Position numbers and translations under genes: made by a program. From Chloroflexota bacterium (GTDB lineage Bacteria; Chloroflexota; Limnocylindria; P2-11E): 35,154 nucleotides of DNA. The stretch spans positions 1-35,154 of the forward strand of contig VBEZ01000125.1 of the NCBI GenBank assembly GCA_005882255.1, read 5' to 3'. Of this stretch, positions 11,602-35,001 are shown one piece after another. Position 1 is the first letter of the stretch. Every line of letters begins with the position of its first letter. Below the pieces are notes generated by a model. That model was not told where the DNA came from and ran no database searches. It saw only the letters and a list, made by a program, of their open reading frames with translations.

Positions 11602-12021
11602 CTAAGCGGCGGGCTTCTTGTTGGGTTCGCGCAGCCAGGGCGTGATGGTGACGCCGACGATGATCCCCTCCGGGCTGAGCAGGCGCGCCACGGTCTGGCC
11701 CCAGGGCTCGGTCTTGGGAGCGACGAGGAGCTGATAGCCCTTCGCGCGAAGCTCTTCCGCCGCCGCGGCGACGTCCTCGACGTCGAACTCGATCCACGCC
11801 TGCGGCGCGGTGACGTTCGACGGCCACTCGCGCGAACCGAAGCACGATTCCGCGGCATCGGCGAGCGGCCAGAGGCCGAGGTGCTTGACCCCGTCGACCT
11901 TTTCGGTGGAAACATCCCCGCTCTCCTCGAGCGGCAGACCGATCGTGTCGCGATAGAAGCGCAGCGCCGCATCCATATCGCGGACGATCGGGCCGAAGCC
12001 GGCGACGAACAGGACTTTCAT
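11602..12021 (-). CDS. VOC/glyoxalase-family protein
   Basis: FGPIVRDMDAALRFYRDTIGLPLEESGDVSTEKVDGVKHLGLWPL...QAWIEFDVEDVAAAAEELRAKGYQLL; TGATG overlap with dnaB copy 2. Confidence 0.85.
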   Translation of the reverse strand: MKVLFVAGFGPIVRDMDAALRFYRDTIGLPLEESGDVSTEKVDGVKHLGLWPLADAAESCFGSREWPSNVTAPQAWIEFDVEDVAAAAEELRAKGYQLLVAPKTEPWGQTVARLLSPEGIIVGVTITPWLREPNKKPAA

Positions 12022-13361
12022 CAGATGTCCGCCCGAGTCTCGCCCAAATCGCGGAACCGCGTCAGCTCGGACTGGAAGTGCAGGTCGAAGTCGCCGGTCG
12101 GGCCGTTGCGGTGCTTCGCCAGCTTCAGGCGCACCACGCTCTCGTCGCGGTCCTTGCGATCCTTCTGCCAGAGGAAGAGGACCAGGTCGGCGTCGGCCTC
12201 AATACTTCCGCTCTCGCGCAGATCTGAAAGCATCGGCTCCGTACCACGCGTCTCGATCTGACGCGACAGCTGCGAGAGCGCCACGAGAGGGACCTCCAGC
12301 TCGCGCGCGATCGACTTCAGGGCGCGCGTGATGACCGCCACCTCCTGCACCCGGCCCTCGTCGTCGCCGGCGCCCTCGATGAGCTGCAGGTAGTCGACGA
12401 CCACCAGGTCCAGGCCGCGGTCGGCCTGAAGTCGACGCGATTTCGCGAGGATGTCGGTCACCGTGAGACGGCTCGATTCCTCGATGAAGATCGGCGCGCG
12501 TTGCAGCTGATTCGAGGCGGAGTTGATCGACTCGAACTCCTTCTCCGAGAGCCGACCGCGGCGCATGCGGTTTCCGTCGATCTCGGCGGTCATCGAGATG
12601 AGCCGCTGCACGACCTGGAGCTCGGTCATCTCGAGCGAGAACACGGCGCAGGTCTTGTGCGCGGTGACCGCGGCGTGCCACACGACGTTCAGGGCGAGGC
12701 TCGTCTTTCCGAGGCCCGGACGCCCACCGATGATGATGAGGTCGGACGGCTGGAACCCTCCGGTCTTCGCGTCGAGATGCTCGAAGCCGGTCGGCACACC
12801 CTGCCGCTGGTCCTCGCCGCGCGCGGTGATCTGATCGGCGAAGCGGCGTAGCGCGATCTCGAGCGGGACCACATCGCGATGCAGGCTCGATTCGCTCACC
12901 GCGAAGAGCAGCTCCTGGGCGTCGCTGACCGCGCTCTCGGCGTCCTCGCGCGTCAGCGCGAGATGGGCGATCTCGTTCGCGGCCTGGATGAGGCGGCGCA
13001 GCAGCGCGGTGCGCTCGACGATCGCGGCGTACGACTCGGCATGCGCGACGGTCGGGACGTTCTGCATGAGGCCGACGAGGAACTGCGCGCCGCCGATCTC
13101 ATCGAGCTCGCTTCGCGCCGCGAGCTCGGTCTGCACGGTCTGGAAGCCCAGCGCCTCGCCTCGCTCGGCGACCCGCTCGATCGCGCCGAGGATGAGGCGA
13201 TGCTGCTCGCGCGAGAGCGAGGCCGGCGCGATGCGGCCGCGCACGACACCCTCGTAGACCGCCGGATCGATCAGGACCGCGCCGAGCAGCGAGGCCTCGG
13301 CCTCGGGATTCTCGGGCGGGGGTTTCGGCGTGCCGCGTTCGAGCCCGTAGTCGACCGTCAT
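12021..13361 (-). CDS. Replicative DNA helicase DnaB paralog (second gene)
   Basis: Walker A GGRPGLGKTSLALNV, LDLVVVDYLQLI, VPLVALSQLSRQIETR, LAKHRNGPTG; N-terminal PENPEAEASLLGAVLID. Confidence 0.93.
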   Translation of the reverse strand: MTVDYGLERGTPKPPPENPEAEASLLGAVLIDPAVYEGVVRGRIAPASLSREQHRLILGAIERVAERGEALGFQTVQTELAARSELDEIGGAQFLVGLMQNVPTVAHAESYAAIVERTALLRRLIQAANEIAHLALTREDAESAVSDAQELLFAVSESSLHRDVVPLEIALRRFADQITARGEDQRQGVPTGFEHLDAKTGGFQPSDLIIIGGRPGLGKTSLALNVVWHAAVTAHKTCAVFSLEMTELQVVQRLISMTAEIDGNRMRRGRLSEKEFESINSASNQLQRAPIFIEESSRLTVTDILAKSRRLQADRGLDLVVVDYLQLIEGAGDDEGRVQEVAVITRALKSIARELEVPLVALSQLSRQIETRGTEPMLSDLRESGSIEADADLVLFLWQKDRKDRDESVVRLKLAKHRNGPTGDFDLHFQSELTRFRDLGETRADI

Positions 13362-14677
13362 ACCGGCATCGAGTCGTCCGAGGCGCGGCTGAAGAACTTC
13401 GCCTGCTCGCTCGCGAAGAGCAGCGAGAAGATGCCGGTGGGGCCGTTGCGGTTCTTCGCGATGCTGCCGTGGATCAGCTTCGGCGCCCCGGCGGCGGTCT
13501 CCTCTTTGTCGCGCCAGAGCATGAGCACGACGTCTGAGTCTTGCTCGATCGCCCCACTCTCGCGAAGCGTCGAGAGCTTTGGCTCCAGACCTGAATCGCC
13601 CGCGGCACGAGACAGCTGCGAGAGGCCGATGACCACCACGCTCAGCTCGCGCGCGAGCGACTTGAGGTTCTTCGTGATCGTCGCGATCTCCTGCACGCGA
13701 TTCTCTTCGTGCTCGCCGGTGCGCATGAGCTGGATGTAATCGACCATGATCACCTCGAGCCGGTCGTGCGTGCTCGCGCGTCGCGCCTTCGTGCGCAGCT
13801 CCATGATCGAAAGGCCTGGCGTGTCGTCGATGAGGATCGGCAGGTTCGCGAGCGACGACGCGGCCTCCGTGTCGAACACGTTGCCGGTGCGCAGCGCGAG
13901 CAGATCGGTGCGGCTGTTCATCGCGAGGAAGCGCGACACGACCTGCTTGGTATCCATCTCGAGCGAGAACACGAGCGTGGGATGGCCGCGCTTGGCCATG
14001 TTGAAGGCCATCGCGAGCCCCAGGCTCGTCTTGCCGACCGAGGGGCGCGCCGCGACGACGACGAGGTCGCCGGCGGAGAAGCCCTCGGTGTAGAAGTCGA
14101 TCTCGCGGAAACCTGACGGGATGCCGCTCACTTCGTACGGTCGCTCCATCCGCTGACTCAGGTGGTCGAAGTTCTCCTGCAAGGCGGCCTGGATGTGTCG
14201 GAGCTGCGCGTTCGCCGACTCATCGCGTAGCGCGAAGATGCGCTGCTCGGCGCGATCGAGCGCGAGCGGGATATCTGTCGGTTCGCCGTACGCGTCGGCC
14301 GCGACCGCGGTCGCCGCGCCGAGGAGGCGGCGCAGGATCGCGCGGTCGCGCACGACGCGGGCGTGGCGTTCGATCTCCACCGCCGTGGCCACGAGCTCGG
14401 TCAGCTCGCGCAGGTACGCCGGACCTCCGACGCGGTCGAGCTCCTCGCGGCGCGCCAGCTCGATCTGCACGGTGAGCGGGTCGATGCGCTCGCGGCGCTC
14501 GAGCAGCGACTGCACCGTCCCGTAGATCCGTTGGTGCCGAGCCAGATAGAAATCGTCTCTTCCCAGAAGGTCGGCGACCTTGAAGATGGCGTCGCGATCG
14601 ATGAGGAGACTGCCGAGCACTTGTTGCTCGGCCGACTCGTCGTATGGAAGCGCCCGGTCCGTGCTCTCCAGCGTCAT
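13358..14677 (-). CDS. dnaB: Replicative DNA helicase DnaB (first gene)
   Basis: PYDESAEQQVLGSLLIDRDAI, Walker A AARPSVGKTSLGLAMA, VIMVDYIQLM, VVVIGLSQLSR, IAKNRNGPTG. Confidence 0.95.
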   Translation of the reverse strand: MTLESTDRALPYDESAEQQVLGSLLIDRDAIFKVADLLGRDDFYLARHQRIYGTVQSLLERRERIDPLTVQIELARREELDRVGGPAYLRELTELVATAVEIERHARVVRDRAILRRLLGAATAVAADAYGEPTDIPLALDRAEQRIFALRDESANAQLRHIQAALQENFDHLSQRMERPYEVSGIPSGFREIDFYTEGFSAGDLVVVAARPSVGKTSLGLAMAFNMAKRGHPTLVFSLEMDTKQVVSRFLAMNSRTDLLALRTGNVFDTEAASSLANLPILIDDTPGLSIMELRTKARRASTHDRLEVIMVDYIQLMRTGEHEENRVQEIATITKNLKSLARELSVVVIGLSQLSRAAGDSGLEPKLSTLRESGAIEQDSDVVLMLWRDKEETAAGAPKLIHGSIAKNRNGPTGIFSLLFASEQAKFFSRASDDSMPV

Positions 14678-19664: not shown

Positions 19665-20783
19665 GTGAGCCGCGTGGGGGAGCGCTTCACCAAGGAAGGT
19701 CTCACGTTCGACGACGTCCTCCTCATCCCTGCACGTAGCGACGTCCTCCCCAGCCAGGTCTCCACCAGAGCGCGGCTCACGAACGACATCACGCTGGAGA
19801 TCCCGATCCTGTCCGCGGCGATGGACACCGTCACCGAATCCCGCATGGCGATCGCGCTCGGACGCCTCGGCGGACTTGGTGTCATCCACCGGAATCTCAC
19901 CATCGCGGAGCAGGTGCGCGAGGTGAAGCTCGCGAAGGATGCCGGAGTGCTGGTCGCGGCCGCGATCGGCGTTTCTGGCGACGCGGACGAACGGACCGCG
20001 GCGCTCGTCGGAGCCGGCGTCGATGTGATCGTGGTCGATGTCGCGCATGGCCATTCGGCCGGTGTGATCCGCATGGTCGAAAAGGTGAAAGCGCGGCATC
20101 GCGTGCAGGTGATCGCCGGCAACGTCGTGACCGCGGAGGGCACCGAGGAGCTCATCGCCGCGGGCGCCGACAGCGTGAAGGTGGGCGTGGGGCCGGGCGC
20201 GATCTGCACCACGCGCGTCGTCGCGGGCGCGGGCATGCCACAGATCACCGCGGTCTTCGATTGCGCGGAGGTCGCGGATCGCCACGGCATCACGATCATC
20301 GCGGACGGTGGGATCCAGCAGTCGGGCGACATCGCGAAGGCGATCGGCGCGGGCGCGTCCACCGTGATGCTGGGCGGGCTGCTCGCGGGCGTCGACGAGT
20401 CGCCGGGCAGCACCACCCAGACGGCGGAGGGGCGATTCAAGTCGTACCGCGGCATGGGCTCGATGGGTGCCATGCAGGCGCGCGCCGGGCAGAAGACCGG
20501 CGCATCGCGCGACCGCTACGGGCAACAGGACATCGGAGAGTTCTCGAAGCTCGTTCCGGAGGGCGTCGAGGCGCACGTGAAGTCGGTCGGGCCGCTCGAG
20601 CCATTCCTCCACCAACTCGTCGGCGGCCTGCGCGCGGGAATGAAGTACGTCGGGGCCGCGACGGTCGAGGATCTCCGAACCAAGTCGACGTTCGTCCGCA
20701 TCTCCGGGGCGGGGCTGCGCGAATCGCACCCACACGACGTGCGGATCACGACCGAACCGCCGAACTATCGGATCAAAGCCTGA
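19665..20783 (+). CDS. guaB: IMP dehydrogenase lacking the CBS (Bateman) module
   Basis: LTFDDVLLIPARSDVLPSQV, GVGPGAICTTRVVAGAGMPQ, YRGMGSMGAM, DRYGQ; 372 aa with no CBS pair between EQVREVKLAKDAG and the catalytic part. Confidence 0.93.
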   Translation: MSRVGERFTKEGLTFDDVLLIPARSDVLPSQVSTRARLTNDITLEIPILSAAMDTVTESRMAIALGRLGGLGVIHRNLTIAEQVREVKLAKDAGVLVAAAIGVSGDADERTAALVGAGVDVIVVDVAHGHSAGVIRMVEKVKARHRVQVIAGNVVTAEGTEELIAAGADSVKVGVGPGAICTTRVVAGAGMPQITAVFDCAEVADRHGITIIADGGIQQSGDIAKAIGAGASTVMLGGLLAGVDESPGSTTQTAEGRFKSYRGMGSMGAMQARAGQKTGASRDRYGQQDIGEFSKLVPEGVEAHVKSVGPLEPFLHQLVGGLRAGMKYVGAATVEDLRTKSTFVRISGAGLRESHPHDVRITTEPPNYRIKA

Positions 20784-25157: not shown

Positions 25158-26741
25158 GTGAGCGCGCCGGAAAGCCGCCTCCTGACGACGGAGGGGGAGT
25201 CCGCCCCGCAGCGCCGAGCGACGATCGCCATCCTCGACTACGGATCCCAGTACACGCAGCTCATCGCGCGCCGCGTGCGCGAGTCGCGCGTGTACTGCGA
25301 GATCTTCGCGCACGACGTCACCGCGAAGGAGCTCGAGCGTCGTGGGGTCGTGGGCGTGATCCTCTCCGGCGGACCATCGAGCGTGTACGACACGGACGCG
25401 CCACAGATCGAGCCGGCCATCCTCGACGGGCGTTTCCCGGTCCTCGGCATCTGCTACGGCATGCATCTGATGGCGCAGGTGCTCGGTGGCGAGGTCGCGC
25501 CCGAAGGCAAGCGCGAGTACGGTCCGGCGACCGTCGACATCGCCGAGTCCGGCGGCTTGTTCGAAGGTCTCTCCGACCACGAGCGCGCGTGGATGAGCCA
25601 CGGCGACACCGTGAAGCGTCTCCCGCCCGGATTCCACGCTGTCGCGCGCACCGAGCGGCTGCCGCTCGCGGCGATGAGCGACGGACGCAACCGCTTCGGC
25701 GTGCAGTTCCACCCCGAGGTCATGCACACGCCGCGCGGCGCCGAGGTGCTGCGCAATTTCCTGTATCGCGTATGCGGCTGCGCCGGCGATTGGACGCCCG
25801 CGGCGTTCATCGCGGAGGCCGTCGCCGAGCTGCGACGGACGATCGGCGACAAGCACGCGATCTGCGCGCTCTCCGGCGGCGTCGATTCAGCTGTCGCGGC
25901 CACACTCGTCGCGCGCGCGATCGGTGACCGGCTCACGTGCGTCTTCATCGACACCGGGCTCCTGCGCGCGAACGAAGCCGAGGAGGTCGTCGCGACCTTC
26001 GGTCCGCGGCTGCGTCTGGTGCAGGTCGACGCGGCGGAGCGCTTCCTCCGTCGCCTCGATGGGGTCAGCGATCCGGAGCAGAAGCGCACCATCATCGGGG
26101 AGGAGTTCATCCGCTGCTTCGAGGAGCAGGCGCGGCGCGTCGGCGGCGTCGATCTGCTGGTGCAGGGCACGATCTACCCCGACGTGATCGAGTCGCGCTC
26201 GCGTGAGTCGAAGACGAGCGCACGCATCAAGACGCACCACAACGTCGGCGGGCTGCCAGAGGTCATGTCGCTCGAGGTCGTCGAGCCGCTGCGGCGTCTC
26301 TTCAAGGACGAGGTCCGTCGCGTCGGCGCGGAGCTCGGGATCCCTGAGGACATCCTCTGGCGCCATCCGTTCCCGGGGCCCGGGCTGGCCGTGCGTGTGC
26401 TCGGCCCGGTCGACCGCGATGCGCTCGACACGCTCCGGCAGGCCGACGCGATCTTCCTCGAGGAACTCCGCGCCGCCGACCTGTACCGCACCGTCGCCCA
26501 GGCCTTCGCCGTTCTCACTCCTGTGCGAAGCGTCGGCGTCATGGGCGACTTCCGCACCTACGGCGCGCTTGTCGCGCTCCGCGCCGTGACGACCGAGGAC
26601 TTCATGACCGCGGACTGGGCGCGCCTGCCGTACGACGTGCTCGCGCGCGCCTCGGCGCGGATCGTGAACGAGATCGCGGCGGTGAACCGGGTCGTCTACG
26701 ACATCTCGTCGAAGCCACCGGCGACGATCGAATGGGAGTGA
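25158..26741 (+). CDS. guaA: GMP synthase (glutamine-hydrolysing)
   Basis: [75 protein letters not shown] at C-terminus. Confidence 0.97.
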
Positions 26742-26762
26742 CCGGGCAGCGGTGGGAGTGAC

Positions 26763-28139
26763 GTGAAGCAGATCCGGGACTACTTCCGCCACGGCGAGAA
26801 GGTGCAGCAGCTCATCCAGGAGCAGCGCAAGCAGCGCAGCCCGGGACGTTCGCTCGGTGCACCCGGTCTCAACTGCCTCGTGCTCGGCGGCGGCGGGCGT
26901 GAGTACGCGATCGCGTGGCGCCTCGCGCGTTGCGACAGCGTCGCGACGATCGACGTCGTGCCCGGAAACGCCGGCGTCGCGCTCTTCTCGCGCGTCATCG
27001 ATTTCTCACCGCACGACGTCGGTCGTCTGCAGCAGCATCTCGCGGCGTCGGCGATCGACCTCGCGATCGTCGGACCGGACGAGCTCATCGCGGAAGGCCT
27101 CGGCGATCACCTGCGCCGCGCGAGCGTCGCGGTCGTGGCGCCGTCGAAGGAGGCCGCGAAGATCGAGTGGAGCAAGACCTTCGCGAAGGAGCTCATGACC
27201 GAAGCGCACGTTCCAACGCCGCGCTGGGAGACCTTCACCACACCGGAGCAGGCGCGCAACGCGCTCGATCGCAACAAATGGGCGGCGCCGCTGGTCGTGA
27301 AAGCCGACGGGCTGGCCGCCGGAAAGGGCGTCACGATCTGCCGCACGCTCGAGGAGGCGCTCATGACGCTCGCGACGCCGCCGACGAACAGCGGTCGCGT
27401 CGTGTTCGAGGAGGTCCTCGAAGGCGAGGAGGCCTCGCTGCAGGCGCTCGTCGACGGCGAGACCGTCGTGGCGCTCCCACCCGCGCGCGATCACAAGCGC
27501 GTGGGCGACGGCGACATCGGCCCGAACACCGGCGGCATGGGCGCATCCTCACCGACCACGGTGCTGCCCGACGAGGATGCGCAGCGCGTCGCGGACGAGC
27601 TCATCACGCCCATCGCTCGCGCGCTTGTCGCGAGGGGAACGCCTTTTCGAGGCGTGATCTTCGCCGGCCTGATCCGGACCACGAGCGGATTCAAAGTCCT
27701 CGAGTACAACGCGCGCTTCGGCGACCCCGAGGCCCAGGTGACGCTGCCACGCATCGGCGGAGATTTTGCGAAGCTCATGGTGGCGCTCGGCGAGGGCCGA
27801 TTAAAGGAGTACGTCGCCCAGAATCCGCTGCGTCTCAGCCAGCGCGCGTTCGTCGACGTCGTGCTCTGCGCCGAGGGCTACCCGGGTTCGCCGCGCGTCG
27901 GCGACCGGATCGAGGGGCTCGACGCGTTGCCCGACGGCGTGTATGGATTCCACGGCGCGACCGCTTCGACGCCCACGGGGGGCTTCATCACCACCGGCGG
28001 CCGCGTCATGCACATCGTCGCCGGAGGCTCGAACATCGCCGAAGCGCGCGACCGCGCCTATCAGGGCGCTGAGCGCGTGACGTTCACCGGCAAGTTCTAT
28101 CGTTCGGACATCGCGGGGAGCGGAGTGGCTGTCGCATGA
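26763..28139 (+). CDS. purD: Phosphoribosylamine-glycine ligase with N-terminal extension
   Basis: [62 protein letters not shown]. Confidence 0.95.
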
Positions 28140-28615
28140 CGCCGTCGGTGAGTGTCCTCATGGGTTCTTCATCGGACGAGACCGTCATGAAGATGGCGGT
28201 CGAGACGCTGCGCGGCCTCGGCGTCGAATGCGAGACGCGTGTTCTCTCCGCGCACCGCACGCCCGACGCGCTGCGCGACTTTGTCACCGAGGCGGATCGA
28301 CGCGGCGTGAGGGTGTTCATCTGCGGGGCCGGAGGCGCGGCGCATCTCGCCGGCGCGGTCGCCGCGCTCACCACGCGCCCGGTCATCGGCGTCCCGCTCG
28401 TGTCGCCGAACGCCGTCGCCGGCGGGCTCGACGCACTCCTTTCTACGGTCCAGATGCCGCGCGGCGTGCCGGTCGCGACCGTCGCGCTCGGCGAGGCGGG
28501 CGCGGCGAATGCCGGGATCCTCGCGGCCGAGATCCTCGCCATCGGGAACGACGAGCTCGGGGGCCGCCTGCGGATGCTGCGCGAGGGCATGGCCGCAAAA
28601 GTGTTGGCCGGATAG
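28136..28615 (+). CDS. purE: N5-carboxyaminoimidazole ribonucleotide mutase
   Basis: [42 protein letters not shown]...[12 protein letters not shown] overlap with purD. Confidence 0.95.
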
Positions 28616-28622
28616 AAGTGGC

Positions 28623-30029
28623 ATGACCATCCAGAACCGCTTCGACACGATCTCGCCGCTGGACAACCGTTTCTACGGCGGCGACGCGACGCTGTACCGG
28701 ACGCTGCATCCGTACCTCTCCGCTGCGGCGACCATCCGCTATCAGGCGCGCGTCGAAGGCGCGCTCGCGCAGGCGATGGCCGACGTGGGCATCTGCGACC
28801 GCCTGGTCGCGGACGGGATCGCGCGCGCCGCCGATCGCATCACGCCACAGGAGGTCGCCGACGAAGAGACGAGGACGCGCCACGACGTGCGCGCTCTCGT
28901 GAACGTCATCCGCGCGCAGGTGCCGGACGATGCGAAGCGCTTCGTGCACCTCGGCGCGACGTCGTACGACATCGTCGACACCGCGAACGCGCTGCGGTAT
29001 CGCGAATGCGTCGAGCGGGTCGTCGTTCCCGCGCTCGGTGCGCTGGTCGCGCGCTGTATCTCGATCGCGGAAGCAGAGGCGGACACACCGCAGATCGGAC
29101 GCACGCACGGTCGCCACGCCGAGCCGATCACCTTCGGCTTCGCGATGGCGGAGTACGTCTCGCGCCTGGGCGACCGCATCGAGCTGCTGCGCTCGGTGGC
29201 GCGGCGCCTCCCGGGCAAGCTCTCCGGCGCGGTCGGCGCCTACGCCGCCGTCGGACTCCTGACCGCGGATCCGCGCGCGCTCGAACGTCGTTTCCTCGCC
29301 TCACTCGGCCTCCATCCCAAGTCGAGCTCGACCCAGATCGTCGAACCCGAGGGCTGGACCGACCTCGCGCATGCCTGCGTCACCGCGCTCGGCGTCATGG
29401 CGAATCTCGCCGACGACATGCGCCAGCTCCAGCGCACCGAGATCGGCGAGGTGGCCGAGTCGTTCGCGGCGGAGCAGGTCGGCTCGTCGACGATGCCGCA
29501 CAAACGGAACCCGGTGTCGTTCGAGAACGTGAAGTCGATCTGGAAGGCGATGGCGCCGCGCGTCCTGACGACGTACCTCGACCAGATCAGCGAGCACCAG
29601 CGCGACCTGACGAACTCGGCGTCGCAGCGCTTCCTCGGCGAGATCGTCGCCGCGACGGCGTATGCCGCGGGCCGGCTGGCGAGCTCGCTCGAGGGGATCC
29701 GCGTCGACCGGGATCGTCTCAAAGCGAACCTCGCGATGTCACGCGGCGCGATCGTCGCCGAGCCGCTCTACGTGCTGCTCGCGAAGTACGGCCATCCCGA
29801 CGCGCACGAGGCGGTGCGGCGGCTGACGCTCGAGGCCGAACGCGGCTCGCGCTCGGTGCTCGAGGTCCTGGCCCAGGACACCGAGCTGCGCGAGTACCTC
29901 ACCAAGCTTTCGCCCGAGGAGCGACGCATCCTCGAGCGCCCCGAGGACTACCGCGGTCTCGCCGCCGACGTCGCGCGCGACGTCGCGACGACCTGGCGCG
30001 AGCGGCTGAAAGGAGTCCTGCCCGAGTGA
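28623..30029 (+). CDS. purB: Adenylosuccinate lyase
   Basis: FDTISPLDNRFYGG, QIGRTHGRHAEPITFG, QVGSSTMPHKRNPVSFENV. Confidence 0.96.
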   Translation: MTIQNRFDTISPLDNRFYGGDATLYRTLHPYLSAAATIRYQARVEGALAQAMADVGICDRLVADGIARAADRITPQEVADEETRTRHDVRALVNVIRAQVPDDAKRFVHLGATSYDIVDTANALRYRECVERVVVPALGALVARCISIAEAEADTPQIGRTHGRHAEPITFGFAMAEYVSRLGDRIELLRSVARRLPGKLSGAVGAYAAVGLLTADPRALERRFLASLGLHPKSSSTQIVEPEGWTDLAHACVTALGVMANLADDMRQLQRTEIGEVAESFAAEQVGSSTMPHKRNPVSFENVKSIWKAMAPRVLTTYLDQISEHQRDLTNSASQRFLGEIVAATAYAAGRLASSLEGIRVDRDRLKANLAMSRGAIVAEPLYVLLAKYGHPDAHEAVRRLTLEAERGSRSVLEVLAQDTELREYLTKLSPEERRILERPEDYRGLAADVARDVATTWRERLKGVLPE

Positions 30030-30916
30030 AGACCCTGATGCAGAGCGCCGTGCCCGGCGCGACGCTGTTCCGGCGCGGCAAGGTCCGCGACGTCTACGAG
30101 GCCGGCGGCGACCGCCTGGTGATCGTCGCGAGCGACCGGCTCTCGGCGTTCGACGTCGTGCTCCCCACGCCGATCCCCGACAAAGGCCGCGTGCTCACCG
30201 AGCTCTCGAGCTTCTGGTTCGATCGGACCGAGCGCGTCGTCCCGAACCACCTCGTGTCGACGAACATCGATGACCTGCCCGCGGTGTTCCGCGAGGTGCC
30301 GGAGCTCGATGGCCGCGCCGTGCTGGTGAAGCGCTGCGAGCGCATCGACGTGGAGTGCGTCGCGCGCGGGTACATCGCTGGGTCGGGCTGGACGGAGTAC
30401 AAGGCGCTCGGCACGGTCGCGAGCGAGACGCTGCCGAAGGGACTCGAGGAATCGCAGCGGCTCGACGAGCCGATCTTCACCCCCGCCACGAAGGCCGTGA
30501 CCGGCCACGACGTGAACATCTCGCGCGCGCAGCTCTCGTCCCTGGTCGGCAGCGAGCTCGCGAAGCAGCTCGAGGAGACGACGCTCGAGCTCTACCGCAA
30601 GGCACACGCGTACGCGCTCGGCCGCGGGCTGATCCTGGCCGACACGAAGTTCGAATTCGGCTTCTACGACGGGAAGCTCACGCTCATCGACGAGGCGCTC
30701 ACGCCCGACTCGTCGCGGTACTGGGACGCGGCCTCGTACAAACCGGGTGGCTCGCCGCCGTCCTATGACAAGCAGTACGTGCGCGACTTCCTCGTGCGGA
30801 GCGGCTGGAACAAGGAGCCGCCGGCGCCGGCGCTCCCGCCCGAGGTCATCGCCGGGACCAGCCAGCGTTACCGCGAGTGCTACGGGAAGCTCACCGGCGA
30901 GGAGTGGTTCGGATGA
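30026..30916 (+). CDS. purC: SAICAR synthase
   Basis: FRRGKVRDVYEAGGDRLVIVASDRLSAFDVVLPTPIPDKGRVL, GLILADTKFEFGF; GTGA overlap with purB. Confidence 0.96.
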   Translation: MKTLMQSAVPGATLFRRGKVRDVYEAGGDRLVIVASDRLSAFDVVLPTPIPDKGRVLTELSSFWFDRTERVVPNHLVSTNIDDLPAVFREVPELDGRAVLVKRCERIDVECVARGYIAGSGWTEYKALGTVASETLPKGLEESQRLDEPIFTPATKAVTGHDVNISRAQLSSLVGSELAKQLEETTLELYRKAHAYALGRGLILADTKFEFGFYDGKLTLIDEALTPDSSRYWDAASYKPGGSPPSYDKQYVRDFLVRSGWNKEPPAPALPPEVIAGTSQRYRECYGKLTGEEWFG

Positions 30917-31170
30917 TCTTCGTCGCGACCATCCGCGTGCTGCCCAAGAGCGAGGTGCGCGATCCGCAGGGGGAGGCGGTGCGCGGCGCGCTGCGGTCGC
31001 TTGGCCTCGCGGTGTCCGAGGTTCGCACCGGCAAGGAGATCGTCGTGACGTTCGAAGCTGCCGACGAGACCGCGGCGCGCGACGCGGTCCGCGTCATGGG
31101 CACCGAGCTCCTCGCGAACCCGGTGATCGAGGACTACGCGTACGAGCTGAAGGAGGGCGCGCCGGCATGA
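30913..31170 (+). CDS. purS: FGAM synthase PurS subunit
   Basis: MIFVATIRVLPKSEVRDPQGEAVRGALRSLGLAVSEVRTGKEIVVTF...LLANPVIEDYAYEL; ATGA overlap with purC. Confidence 0.95.
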   Translation: MIFVATIRVLPKSEVRDPQGEAVRGALRSLGLAVSEVRTGKEIVVTFEAADETAARDAVRVMGTELLANPVIEDYAYELKEGAPA

Positions 31171-31880
31171 CGCGCGTCGCGATCCTCCGCTACCCCGGCA
31201 CCTGGAGCGAGCGCGACTTCCAGCACGCGCTGTCACTCGTGCCGGGTGTCGAGAGCGACATCCTCTGGCACGAGGACGCCGACCTTAAGGGCTACGACGC
31301 CGCCGTCGTCCCGGGTGGCTTTACCTATGGCGACTACGTACGCGCGGGCGCGATCGCGAAGCTCTCGCCCGCGACGCGCGAGCTGCGGCGCTTCGCCGAC
31401 GCGGGCAAGCTCGTGCTGGGCTCGTGCAACGGCTTCCAGATCCTGTGCGAGGCCGGGCTTCTGCCCGGCGCGCTGGTGCGCAACCGCGGCCTCGAGTTCC
31501 GCTGCGACTGGGTCCACCTGCGTGTCGAACGCGATGACACGCCGTGGACCACGGGCCTGCGCGACGCGGTGTTGCGCATGCCGATCGCGCACGGCGAGGG
31601 CTGCTGGGTCGCGGACGACGAGACGCTCGCCGATGTCGAATCGCGCGGGCAGGTCGTATTCCGCTACACGGACGAGCGCGGCGGCGCGACAGCGGCGGCG
31701 AATCCCAACGGATCGCTCGCCAACATCGCCGGCGTGTGCAATGAGGGCCGCAACGTCGTGGGTCTCATGCCTCACCCGGAACGGTGCTCGGAAGCCCTCC
31801 TGGGGGGCACTGACGGGTATCGGGTCCTGGCCAATCTCGCCCCGGCTCTGGCAGGCACGGCTCCTGCCCTATATAGATAG
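31167..31880 (+). CDS. purQ: FGAM synthase PurQ (glutaminase) subunit
   Basis: VAILRYPGTWSERDF, VPGGFTYGDYVRAGAIA, VLGSCNGFQILCEAGLLPGAL, GLMPHPER; ATGA overlap with purS. Confidence 0.96.
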   Translation: MTRVAILRYPGTWSERDFQHALSLVPGVESDILWHEDADLKGYDAAVVPGGFTYGDYVRAGAIAKLSPATRELRRFADAGKLVLGSCNGFQILCEAGLLPGALVRNRGLEFRCDWVHLRVERDDTPWTTGLRDAVLRMPIAHGEGCWVADDETLADVESRGQVVFRYTDERGGATAAANPNGSLANIAGVCNEGRNVVGLMPHPERCSEALLGGTDGYRVLANLAPALAGTAPALYR

Positions 31881-31888
31881 GTATAGAG

Positions 31889-32740
31889 ATGGACCTTTTC
31901 GAGAAACAGGCCCAACTCCAGTCGCTCTTTCAGACGAGCCCGGTCGACGCTGCCTACGGCCAGGGCACCCCCGCCGCGCGCAAGCTCGCGGGCGCATTCG
32001 CCGACCAGAGCGTCGGCCTCCTGCTTCATGCCAAGGTGCGGGCCAACGAGTTCTTCGACTATCAGGTCTACTTCGTGAGTGAGCTGTCGAAGACCCTCGA
32101 GACCGAGGGCCTCGACGTCGTGATCCTCAACCAAGCGTCGCTCCTCCAGCGCGCGCAGGTCATCCGCAGCTGGAGCCTTCTCTTCCAACGCGACCACAAG
32201 CGCCGGGTCCAGTGGGAGGCGCGCGCGGTCATGGAGTACCTCGAGTTCCAGAAATACGACGACATCCAGAGCAAAGCACTAGCCGAACGCACCAAGGGCG
32301 AGCGCTTCGCGATCGACGCCGAGTACGTGTTCGCGCGTCTCGCGCGCCTGCGCGAATACACGCAGCTGCTCTCTGACCTGCGGCCGATCGACCGGGTGAA
32401 GTTCCGTTCGGATCCAAAGCTCTACGGTCTGGCGCAGTGGTACCTGCAGCAGGCGGTGGAGCTGCTCTTCGGGACCGGCGCGTATCTGGTGATGGCGCTC
32501 GCGCTGCCGAAGCCCGAGGCGTACCACGACATCCTCGACGCGATCGGCAAGCACGGGATCATCGACAAACAGCTGGCCTACCGCCTCGAGCACCTCGCGA
32601 ACCTGCGCAATCTGCTGGCCTATGACCGCGAGCAGACGGACATCGACGAGGTGTACGCATCGGTCCAGACCCGCGTGGCCGATCTGCTCGCGTTCGCCGA
32701 TCAGATCGAGCGTTTCATCGGAGCCGACGCCGCGACATGA
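31889..32740 (+). CDS. MntA-HepT-like fusion (MNT nucleotidyltransferase-like N-half, HepT/DUF86-like C-half), catalytic motifs degenerate
   Basis: N-half LDVVILNQASLLQRAQVIRSWSLLFQRDHKRRVQWEARAVMEYLEF resembles the MNT C-terminal half. C-half IDAEYVFARLARLREYTQLLSDL...YGLAQWYLQQAVELLFGTGAYLVMALALPKPEAYHDILDAIGKHGIIDKQLAYRLEHLANLRNLLAYDREQTDIDEVY resembles HepT. GSxARG/DxD and RxxxxHxY positions are not conserved. Confidence 0.7.
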   Translation: MDLFEKQAQLQSLFQTSPVDAAYGQGTPAARKLAGAFADQSVGLLLHAKVRANEFFDYQVYFVSELSKTLETEGLDVVILNQASLLQRAQVIRSWSLLFQRDHKRRVQWEARAVMEYLEFQKYDDIQSKALAERTKGERFAIDAEYVFARLARLREYTQLLSDLRPIDRVKFRSDPKLYGLAQWYLQQAVELLFGTGAYLVMALALPKPEAYHDILDAIGKHGIIDKQLAYRLEHLANLRNLLAYDREQTDIDEVYASVQTRVADLLAFADQIERFIGADAAT

Positions 32741-35001
32741 GCTCGTCCCCGATGCTCACGGGGACGGAAGCGGCGCAGCCTAAGTTGGACATCCTCGGCG
32801 AGGTCGGCCTGACGCCGTTCGAGGGCGCCCGCGTGCGCGAGCTCGTGGGTCGCGAGCCGAACGCGCTCGAGTGGGCGATGTTCGGCGCGATGTGGAGCGA
32901 GCACTGCGCCTACAAGCACTCGAAGAAGCTGCTCCGCACGCTGCCGACGAAGGGACCGCACGTCGCGCTCGGCCCCGGCGAGAACGCGGGGGCCGTCGAT
33001 ATCGGCGACGGACTGCTCTGCGCTTTCAAGGTCGAGAGCCACAACCACCCATCGGCGGTCGAGCCGTATCAGGGCGCGGCCACCGGTGTGGGCGGGATCC
33101 TGCGCGACGTCTTCGCGATGGGCGCGCGGCCGGTCGCGGTGCTCAACGCGCTGTTCTTCGGGCCGCCCAGCGCGCCACGCGCTCGGCGCCTGCTGTCCGG
33201 TGTGGTCGGAGGGATCTCCTATTACGGGAACTGCGTCGGCATCCCCGATGTCGGCGGCCACGTCTCGTTCGAGGATTGCTATTTGGAGAACCCGCTGGTG
33301 AACGCGATGTGCGTCGGCCTGGTCCAACGCGACCGGCTCTCGCGCGCGAACACCGCGAAGCCGGGCAGCGCCGTCTACCTGGTCGGCTCGGACACCGGCC
33401 GGGATGGGATCGCGGGTGCGTCGCTGCTCGCGAGCTTCGAGCTCGGGGCCGGGAGCGACGCGAAACGACCGTCGGTGCAGGTGGGGAATCCGTTCCTCGA
33501 GAAGCTGCTGATGGAAGCGACGCTCGAGCTGGTCGAGCTCGATGCTGTCGAGGCGGTCCAGGATCTCGGCGCCGCCGGGCTCACCTGCGCCTCGAGCGAG
33601 GTCGCGGCGCGAAGTGGCGTCGGCATGCGGATCGACGTCGACAGGGTGCCACGGCGCGCGAAGAACATGAGCCCCTACGAGGTGATGCTGAGCGAGAGCC
33701 AGGAGCGGATGCTCGTGATCGCGCGGCCCGGTCGCGAAGGCGACGTCGAGCGGATCTTCCGCCGCTGGGAGCTGCAGGGGGTGCGCATCGGCGAAGTCAC
33801 TGAGGAAAAGGTGCTGACCATCTCGAGCGGCGCTGAGGTCGTTGCGACCCTCCCGCCGGCGTTGCTGGCGGACGAGGCGCCCGAATACGACGTCTCGCGG
33901 TGGGCCGCCCCACCTCGCGTCGCCGGCGACACCCTCCCCGACCGAGCCGACGTCGCCGCCGCTGCGGGGAACGAGCGACCGCTACACAAGATCGGACTGG
34001 AGCTTCTCGATCTGCTCGCATCGCCGGCGGTGGCGTCGCGAGCGGTCATCTATCGAACGTACGACCAGATGGTCGGCACCGACACGGTCCTCGGGCCCGG
34101 TGCGGACGCCGCGGTGCTCCGTATCAAAGGTCGAGCCGACGGGATCGCGGTGGCCATCGACGCCCAGCCGCGCGTCGCGGCGCTCGATCCATTCGTCGGC
34201 GCCGCGGCAGCCGTGGCCGAGGCGCTGCGGAACGTCGTGTGCGTCGGCGCGACGCCGCTCGCGATCACGGACTGCCTCAATCTGGGCAACCCCGAACGGC
34301 CCGAAGGGGCGTGGCAGCTCGAGCGAACGATCGCCGGCATCTCGGCGGCGTGTGTCGCGCTGGGCGTTCCGGTCGTGTCCGGCAACGTGTCGCTCTATAA
34401 CGCGACGCGCGGCGCGGACATCTGGCCGACGGCGGTCATCGGCGCGGTCGGCCACCTCGGCGACGTGACGCGCCACATCCCGGTCACCTCGGGTCGCCCC
34501 GGCGACGTCGTGATGCTCGCCGGCAGCGCCAACGTCGCGGTGGGCGCGTCCACCTACGGCGCGTCCATCGGCGTGCACGAAGGGCCGATCGCGATCGACC
34601 TCGCGCTCGAGGCGCGCCTCCAGCGTTTCATCCTCGCCGCCCACGAGGCCGGCGCGCTGCGGGCCGCGCACGATCGTGCGGAGGGCGGCCTGGCGGTCGC
34701 GCTGGCGGAGCTCGCGCTGCGCGATCGCGTCGGGATGAAGGTCACCCTTCCGGCCGTCCGCGGCATCGACAAGCGCGCCGCGCTCTTTGGTGAAGGTCCG
34801 TCTGGCGCCGTCCTCGTCGTGGGTCCATCGTTGGAGTCGCGCCTGCGCGCGCTCGCGGCCCAGCACGACGTTCCGGTGTGGACGCTGGGGACGATCGGCG
34901 GAGATCTGCTCGAGATCGCGCCGGTGCTCGGTCTGCCGATCGCGTCGCTGGTCGATGCACACGCGAGCGGGCTCGCGCGAGCGCTGGGGAGGGAGGCCTA
35001 G
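32737..35001 (+). CDS. purL: FGAM synthase PurL (small form, PurSQL complex)
   Basis: NALEWAMFGAMWSEHCAYKHSKKLLRTLPT, KVESHNHPSAVEPYQGAATGVGGILRDVFAMGARP; ATGA overlap with the MntA-HepT-like gene. Confidence 0.97.
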   Translation: MSSSPMLTGTEAAQPKLDILGEVGLTPFEGARVRELVGREPNALEWAMFGAMWSEHCAYKHSKKLLRTLPTKGPHVALGPGENAGAVDIGDGLLCAFKVESHNHPSAVEPYQGAATGVGGILRDVFAMGARPVAVLNALFFGPPSAPRARRLLSGVVGGISYYGNCVGIPDVGGHVSFEDCYLENPLVNAMCVGLVQRDRLSRANTAKPGSAVYLVGSDTGRDGIAGASLLASFELGAGSDAKRPSVQVGNPFLEKLLMEATLELVELDAVEAVQDLGAAGLTCASSEVAARSGVGMRIDVDRVPRRAKNMSPYEVMLSESQERMLVIARPGREGDVERIFRRWELQGVRIGEVTEEKVLTISSGAEVVATLPPALLADEAPEYDVSRWAAPPRVAGDTLPDRADVAAAAGNERPLHKIGLELLDLLASPAVASRAVIYRTYDQMVGTDTVLGPGADAAVLRIKGRADGIAVAIDAQPRVAALDPFVGAAAAVAEALRNVVCVGATPLAITDCLNLGNPERPEGAWQLERTIAGISAACVALGVPVVSGNVSLYNATRGADIWPTAVIGAVGHLGDVTRHIPVTSGRPGDVVMLAGSANVAVGASTYGASIGVHEGPIAIDLALEARLQRFILAAHEAGALRAAHDRAEGGLAVALAELALRDRVGMKVTLPAVRGIDKRAALFGEGPSGAVLVVGPSLESRLRALAAQHDVPVWTLGTIGGDLLEIAPVLGLPIASLVDAHASGLARALGREA

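Follow-up and report, generated by a model that had tools for sequence, protein, structure and literature searches.

The window, by which we mean the whole 35,154-nucleotide stretch of Chloroflexota DNA analysed here, carries a purine biosynthesis operon in which guaA, purD, purE, purB, purC, purS, purQ, mh and purL follow one another on one strand (Table 1). The purB call scored under its own equivalog cut-off, with adenylosuccinate lyase as the best family. The gene that we call mh starts 8 nt past the purQ stop codon and overlaps purL by an ATGA at its end; the position, the length and the coupled placement between purQ and purL that an earlier sequence-only reading had given for this frame were all exact. 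The frame is single and uninterrupted in the window and in every complete homolog.

Table 1. Genes and sequence features of the mh locus (positions in the window; residue numbers refer to mh).
Feature	Position	Strand	Basis
guaA, purD, purE, purB, purC (upstream purine genes)	25158..30916	+	profile matches
purS	30913..31170	+	NF004630, 83 bits, cut-off 75
purQ, FGAM synthase subunit	31167..31880	+	NCBIfam TIGR01737, 289 bits
mh, fused MntA-like (residues 1-136) and HepT-like (144-283) protein, 283 aa	31889..32740	+	ORF, profiles, model
Degenerate MNT active-site loop, residues 26-42, GTPAARKLAGAFADQSV; D39 kept, S41 for second Asp	31964..32014	+	alignment
D76, third MNT carboxylate position (aligned to MntA D71), invariant in all homologs	32114..32116	+	alignment
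Remodelled HepT motif R240-N-L-L-A-Y245-D-R247, for R-x4-H-x-Y	32606..32629	+	alignment; offset 138
purL, FGAM synthase subunit	32737..35001	+	NCBIfam NF002290, 884 bits
purL-start element: predicted hairpin 32744-32751/32759-32766 (CGTCCCCG/CGGGGACG) and mini-hairpin 32772-32774/32778-32780 (GGC-GNA-GCC)	32737..32790	+	covariance model R1

The C-terminal half of mh matches the HepT-like family of Pfam (PF01934, E 1.9e-16, 60.3 bits for a cut-off of 23.5) and the HepT_toxin model of NCBIfam (65.4 bits, cut-off 60). The N-terminal half of the window protein scores under the cut-offs for MntA (35.8 bits, cut-off 60) and for Pfam Polbeta (16.5 bits, cut-off 26.9), and its relatives encoded in purine operons (the pur clade) reach 44.5-46.8 bits with the MntA profile. 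Fused homologs from Ktedonobacteria score 66.6-70.9 bits with MntA and so exceed its cut-off; of three tested, two also pass that for HepT. Up to E 10, HepT-like and Polbeta were the only Pfam matches of mh. Against the PDB, the family profile retrieved HepT structures at E 8e-12 and, weakly, one MNT antitoxin chain; phmmer with the window protein alone gave weak HepT matches, so that the family profile was needed. An AlphaFold model built with 36 homologs (pLDDT 82) shows an NTase fold followed by a HEPN helical bundle, the relative placement of the two domains being unreliable at a pTM of 0.51. In Foldseek searches with this model, the HEPN toxins 7ae6, 7ae8, 7ae2 and 7ae9 came out on top (TMt about 0.85-0.94) and MNT chains lower. 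The identity of mh as a fused MntA-HepT-like protein is thus well supported by profile searches, fold searches and the single clade described below, as the sequence-only reading had proposed; the C-terminal half matches the expected family over the cut-offs and the N-terminal half below them, and the homologs share the fused architecture.

Active-site residues of the two halves

The motifs were aligned over 23 pur-clade and 12 Ktedonobacteria homologs. The MNT motif, canonically GS-x10-DxD, reads GT-x11-D-Q-S in the window protein and mostly G[T/M/S]-x11-[D/E]-x-D in the pur clade, the x11 spacing being common to the pur-clade and Ktedonobacteria homologs. The Ser of the GS pair appears in the pur clade as T, M, S, L or R (mostly GT or GM). 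The first Asp is kept in 19 of the 23 (Glu in the other four), the second in 20 and D76 in all 23, and changes of D to E, S or G are found among these aspartates. The second Asp is gone in the window protein and in its closest complete relative (ADQSV and SDQSV), a loss limited to a few close relatives. The earlier claim that the MNT motif is replaced, together with the motif quoted for it, therefore stands for the window and its closest relatives but not for most of the family, where the motif is near-canonical (G[T/S]-x11-D-x-D), nor for Ktedonobacteria, where it is fully intact. In MntA, activity was abolished by changes of G27/S28 or by D39E/D41E, and a role of D71 has been described (PMC7641770). 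The window protein, lacking the second, metal-binding Asp, probably no longer carries out nucleotide transfer.

In HepT, the RNase motif is R-x4-H and the AMPylated site is Y104 (PMC7641770). The corresponding motif is R-x4-[Y/F]-D-[R/K] in all 23 pur-clade homologs and R-x4-H-x-Y in none of them; the RNLLAYDR of the window is invariant apart from Y to F in two sequences and R to K in one. Because query residues 142-276 align with residues 4-138 of the HEPN toxin chain in 7ae9 at an unchanging offset of 138, the toxin residues R46, R102, H107 and Y109, which are the mutated residues according to the PDB titles, correspond to W184, R240, Y245 and R247 of mh. Neither W184 nor R240 varies among the 23 sequences; Trp has taken the position of the conserved Arg46. 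Q183, W184, Y/F245, D246 and R/K247 form the new residues conserved in the pur clade. In addition, H213 is found in all 23 pur-clade and in 10 of 12 Ktedonobacteria homologs, and is Ala in L108, a fusion with intact motifs. Judged from these alignments, the catalytic His and the AMPylated Tyr of HepT, whose loss had been noticed in the window, are gone across the whole pur clade, with a new conserved set in their place.

Distribution, descent and selection

Whole-genome searches covered 28 genomes of the family to which the window belongs and located the fused gene in 26 of them, one copy in each; it is also present in the one sampled genome from another family of the same order, and was not found as a fused protein in other families of the class. 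The two family genomes without mh gave no purQ match either, so the region is missing from those assemblies. In Ktedonobacteria, a fused homolog occurs once per genome: in one family all 8 high-quality genomes have it, and overall it is present in 25 of 29 genomes. These proteins (L054-L067) share 37-46% identity with mh over the full length as well as the x11 spacing. They differ from pur-clade members in their intact MNT motif, in a HEPN motif that is degenerate in another way (RDxLVHDP and variants) and in their neighbours: they adjoin moaD/moaE in most loci read and are never close to pur genes. A TPR protein, GntR and thioredoxin form a conserved neighbourhood downstream of them. Named records with Ktedonobacteria homologs include Dictyobacter and Tengunoibacter, and the relatives of the window are Chloroflexi MAGs. 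The family-wide occurrence and the Ktedonobacteria homologs rule out an event confined to the window. No relative of mh was encoded on viral contigs.

A survey of gene neighbourhoods, which the sequence-only reading had suggested, showed that mh adjoins purQ, purL or both wherever the contig permits checking. In nearly all loci, purQ and mh are spaced by -4 to +9 nt, and the 4-nt overlap with purL recurs in the outgroup family of the order as well as in several genera. Elsewhere mh and purL stand 49-62 nt or 0.3-1.3 kb apart, the larger gaps holding unrelated genes, for example lipoprotein-like and FAD-type oxidoreductase genes as judged by eye, and one genome has a Fic-like gene between purQ and mh. 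Tight coupling to purQ and purL is not universal, since unrelated genes intervene in some genera. In genome G010, mh has a RelBE-like pair on its upstream side and purL downstream, so that linkage to purQ is lost and linkage to purL is kept. This pair (Phd/RelB-like plus RelE-like, assigned by eye) stands directly before mh at L052:2165-2837.

Since other families of the class have FGAM synthase but no mh, the catalysis does not depend on mh. In one of them (f3) purQ abuts purL, and in another (f4) a different gene lies in between; the purQ-purL interval thus accepts insertions repeatedly. The f4 gene was seen at L135-L140 and L144, and the readable copies (L136, L140) encode a double zinc-ribbon membrane protein, which rules out kinship with mh.

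In a tree of the concatenated MNT and HEPN alignment that included two-gene pairs and other fusions, all mh proteins formed one clade (UFBoot 100), with a Ktedonobacteria subclade (100) and a pur-operon subclade (99). The fusion is common to Ktedonobacteria members located elsewhere, so it was not made solely in the pur operon of this lineage; of the earlier proposal that the pair was fused and repurposed, the fusion and the domestication stand. Four proteins from another Chloroflexota family (L108, L110, L109, L152) are likewise single-chain MNT-HEPN proteins. Unlike mh, all four keep R-x4-H-x-Y, with GSx10DxD in L108 and L110 and a shortened GS...DxD in L109 and L152. Because L108/L110 and L109/L152, with both catalytic motifs, fall outside the mh clade, fusion probably arose more than once. 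As a separate observation, L108:2325-3215, L110:1944-2834, L109:2067-2945 and L152:1474-2352 are candidate self-neutralising one-protein toxin-antitoxins.

Within the genus of the window, pairwise dN/dS of mh is about 0.03-0.13, and it is 0.19 to the next genus; the values are lower than those of purQ in each comparison and lower than those of purL in most. Together with conservation of sequence and position throughout the family, this excludes a chance ORF, and a pseudogene is likewise ruled out. Single copy, vertical descent, absence from viral contigs, purifying selection and a fixed operon position all bear out the earlier suggestion of domestication.

The two halves are constrained differently in the two clades. 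With the topology of each clade held fixed, tree lengths in the pur clade were 4.46 for the MNT loop (residues 21-45) and 1.27 for the HEPN motif (236-252); in Ktedonobacteria they were 1.41 and 5.64. With sampling equalised, a contrast this strong was seen in 10 of 58,322 pairs of residue windows, a descriptive number because the test was post hoc. No part of the MNT domain evolves faster in the pur clade than its active-site loop. Read most simply, these rates would mean that Ktedonobacteria have the MNT domain as their working part, and the pur clade the rebuilt HEPN pocket.

The nucleotide element at the start of purL

Right past the mh stop, purL opens with codons of the pattern CGTCCCCG-N7-CGGGGACG-N5-GGC-GNA-GCC-T. 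Four of the five four-fold sites in this element are invariant over 11 genomes versus 2% of 152 such sites in the remaining purL (p 1.3e-4), and its invariant Pro codon CCT has a usage of 4% among the genes of the window. The constraint thus acts on nucleotides; in L018 and L021 the hairpin lies in another reading frame. The covariance model R1 placed the element at purL starts across the family, also where mh and purL stand apart, and gave a weak match in the outgroup family; it did not find the element in the f3/f4 or Ktedonobacteria loci searched. No strong second copy was found in the genome of the window. In G010, the sole strong match lies just before purF (identified by eye), as a short upstream frame; in this one genus, at L178:380-600 (contig C93 of G010), the element is thus situated between purL and purF, and the frame overlaps the purF start.

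The hairpin itself is a prediction and not a proven structure, since its covariation is weak and most pairs never vary. The element is possibly an uncharacterised cis-regulatory RNA. A scan of the window with Rfam for a known purine riboswitch returned tRNA only, and a scan of the operon for sigma-70 promoters and terminators gave nothing over background. The element and mh occur in the same lineage, and a functional link between them would be a guess.

Possible role of the fused protein

The nearest known system is the MntA-HepT type VII toxin-antitoxin (Shewanella oneidensis SO_3165/SO_3166; 5yep, 6m6u, 7bxo; 7ae2-7ae9), which has both domains with MNT first, the same folds and detectable sequence homology. 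It consists of two adjacent genes, has an RNase toxicity that AMPylation neutralises, and is mobile or patchy in distribution, whereas mh is one chain, has lost R-x4-H-x-Y, has an altered GS-x10-DxD with one residue extra, and is single copy, vertical and fixed in a biosynthetic operon with no sign of mobility. An active two-gene toxin-antitoxin inserted in the operon is ruled out by the fusion, the lost motifs and the vertical single copy. The group of GlnE/GlnD and kanamycin nucleotidyltransferase resembles mh in being one polypeptide with lost HEPN catalytic residues, for which an origin from toxin-antitoxins and a regulatory use have been proposed (PMC3710099). In that group, the NTase residues are intact and the NTase is the working part, whereas in the pur clade constraint is strongest at the HEPN site and the NTase site is relaxed; the aspartates are still present in most members of this clade, and the window protein has GT for GS and has lost the second Asp. 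MtlR is also a HEPN fold without RNase residues encoded in a metabolic operon (that for mannitol), where it acts as an inactive HEPN repressor of the operon that encodes it (PMC3710099). On the other hand, mh gave no match to the MtlR profile (Pfam, E up to 10) and adds an MNT domain; operon repression is reported for MtlR (PMC3710099), and for mh regulation is a proposal.

We give about even odds (roughly 0.5) to the reading that mh is a domesticated single-chain descendant of MntA-HepT with a rebuilt HEPN pocket, which would serve as a non-catalytic regulator of purine synthesis. A HEPN-MNT toxin-antitoxin pair became one chain in an ancestor shared with the Ktedonobacteria protein family, and the gene was fixed in the purine operon of one Chloroflexota order, normally between purQ and purL. 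The results above show this descent, the fusion, the location, the residue changes and the constraint; loss of catalysis, the ligand and a regulatory role are inferred from them. The HEPN half would have ceased to work as an RNase with the exchange of the His for Tyr/Phe, of the AMPylated Tyr for Arg/Lys and of Arg46 for Trp; its remodelled motif being the most constrained part, the pocket seems rebuilt rather than decaying, and the MNT active site has relaxed. As the most likely mechanism, we suppose that the HEPN pocket of an mh dimer takes up a ligand (RNA, a nucleotide or the PurSQL enzyme) and that expression or activity of FGAM synthase is thereby adjusted, translational coupling keeping the production of mh in step with that of PurL. 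The logic may be similar to that of MtlR, namely an inactive HEPN protein within the operon under its own control. Speaking against this reading, sister families manage without mh, about 1 kb of unrelated genes parts mh from purL in some genera, NTase activity may persist in the many relatives with intact aspartates, and a place in a steadily expressed operon could be fortuitous. A narrower version is quite improbable in our view: a fused pair devoid of both enzyme activities would be an RNA-binding regulator whose HEPN pocket recognises the purL-start hairpin and couples FGAM synthase to a purine signal.

It seems rather unlikely that mh is a passenger, domesticated for an unrelated housekeeping role and placed in the pur operon merely for steady expression. 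The Ktedonobacteria homologs reside elsewhere, adjoining moaD/moaE, and the class tolerates other purQ-purL insertions such as the f4 zinc-ribbon membrane gene. However, mh has stayed in place across two families and several genera, in contrast to other insertions, which are transient; the ATGA coupling to purL recurs, and G010 keeps the purL linkage despite its lost purQ linkage. We also consider it unlikely that mh still works as an NTase on PurQ, PurL or a small molecule and that its dead HEPN domain binds the substrate, as in GlnE/GlnD and kanamycin nucleotidyltransferase. Such a precedent exists (PMC3710099), most of the pur clade keeps the carboxylates, and the Ktedonobacteria homologs have an intact GS-x11-DVD in a highly conserved MNT domain. 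This reading is most plausible for the relatives that keep DxD, where activity may persist. It is opposed by the fast evolution of the active-site loop in the pur clade, by the replacement of the Ser of GS with T, M, L or R in most members and the exchanges of Asp, comparable to changes that inactivated MntA (PMC7641770), and by the missing second Asp of the window protein.

We regard it as quite improbable that RNase activity persists in the HEPN half, through a site rebuilt from R240, Tyr245/Asp246 and the family-specific His213 and under restraint in cis from the MNT half. No sequence deviates at R240, all pur-clade and most Ktedonobacteria homologs have H213, which gives way to Ala in the motif-intact L108, and HEPN families with D for H plus a conserved H elsewhere have been noted (PMC3710099). 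Nevertheless, the R46 position is Trp, and strong purifying selection with strict single copy in a biosynthetic operon is not toxin-like. Moreover, we know of no RNase HEPN that uses R-x4-Y. That mh is a decaying, pseudogene-like remnant of a toxin-antitoxin is hardly credible: the window protein does have changes in each of its catalytic motifs, but the frame is intact in all complete copies and dN/dS is mostly below that of the neighbouring pur genes, so that the selection data refute it.

The principle behind the preferred reading of mh as a domesticated regulator is already published in general form: a HEPN domain that is joined to MNT typically has no RNase residues, is viewed as a domesticated part of a toxin-antitoxin and turns regulatory (PMC3710099). 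The open-licence papers searched describe neither the lineage with mh in its pur operon nor the swap of constraint between domains nor the element at the start of purL, and we found in them no MNT/HEPN protein tied to purQ-purL. The family offers a natural series from a widespread toxin-antitoxin pair to a protein of core metabolism. From the same fused ancestor, two paths seem to have been taken: Ktedonobacteria keep the NTase while the RNase domain drifts, and the pur lineage has rebuilt the RNase domain while the NTase site relaxes. The role of domesticated HEPN domains thereby becomes directly testable in a pathway with measurable metabolites. If mh does control FGAM synthase, a toxin-derived type would be added to the purine regulators.

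Finally, two other loci of the window deserve mention. The 372-aa IMP dehydrogenase-like protein encoded at 19665-20783 apparently has no internal CBS pair, because its best stretch starts at residue 95 but at profile position 213. On the minus strand, 12021-14677 holds two different DnaB-like replicative helicase genes in tandem with a 4-nt overlap, the second of them recognised by eye.
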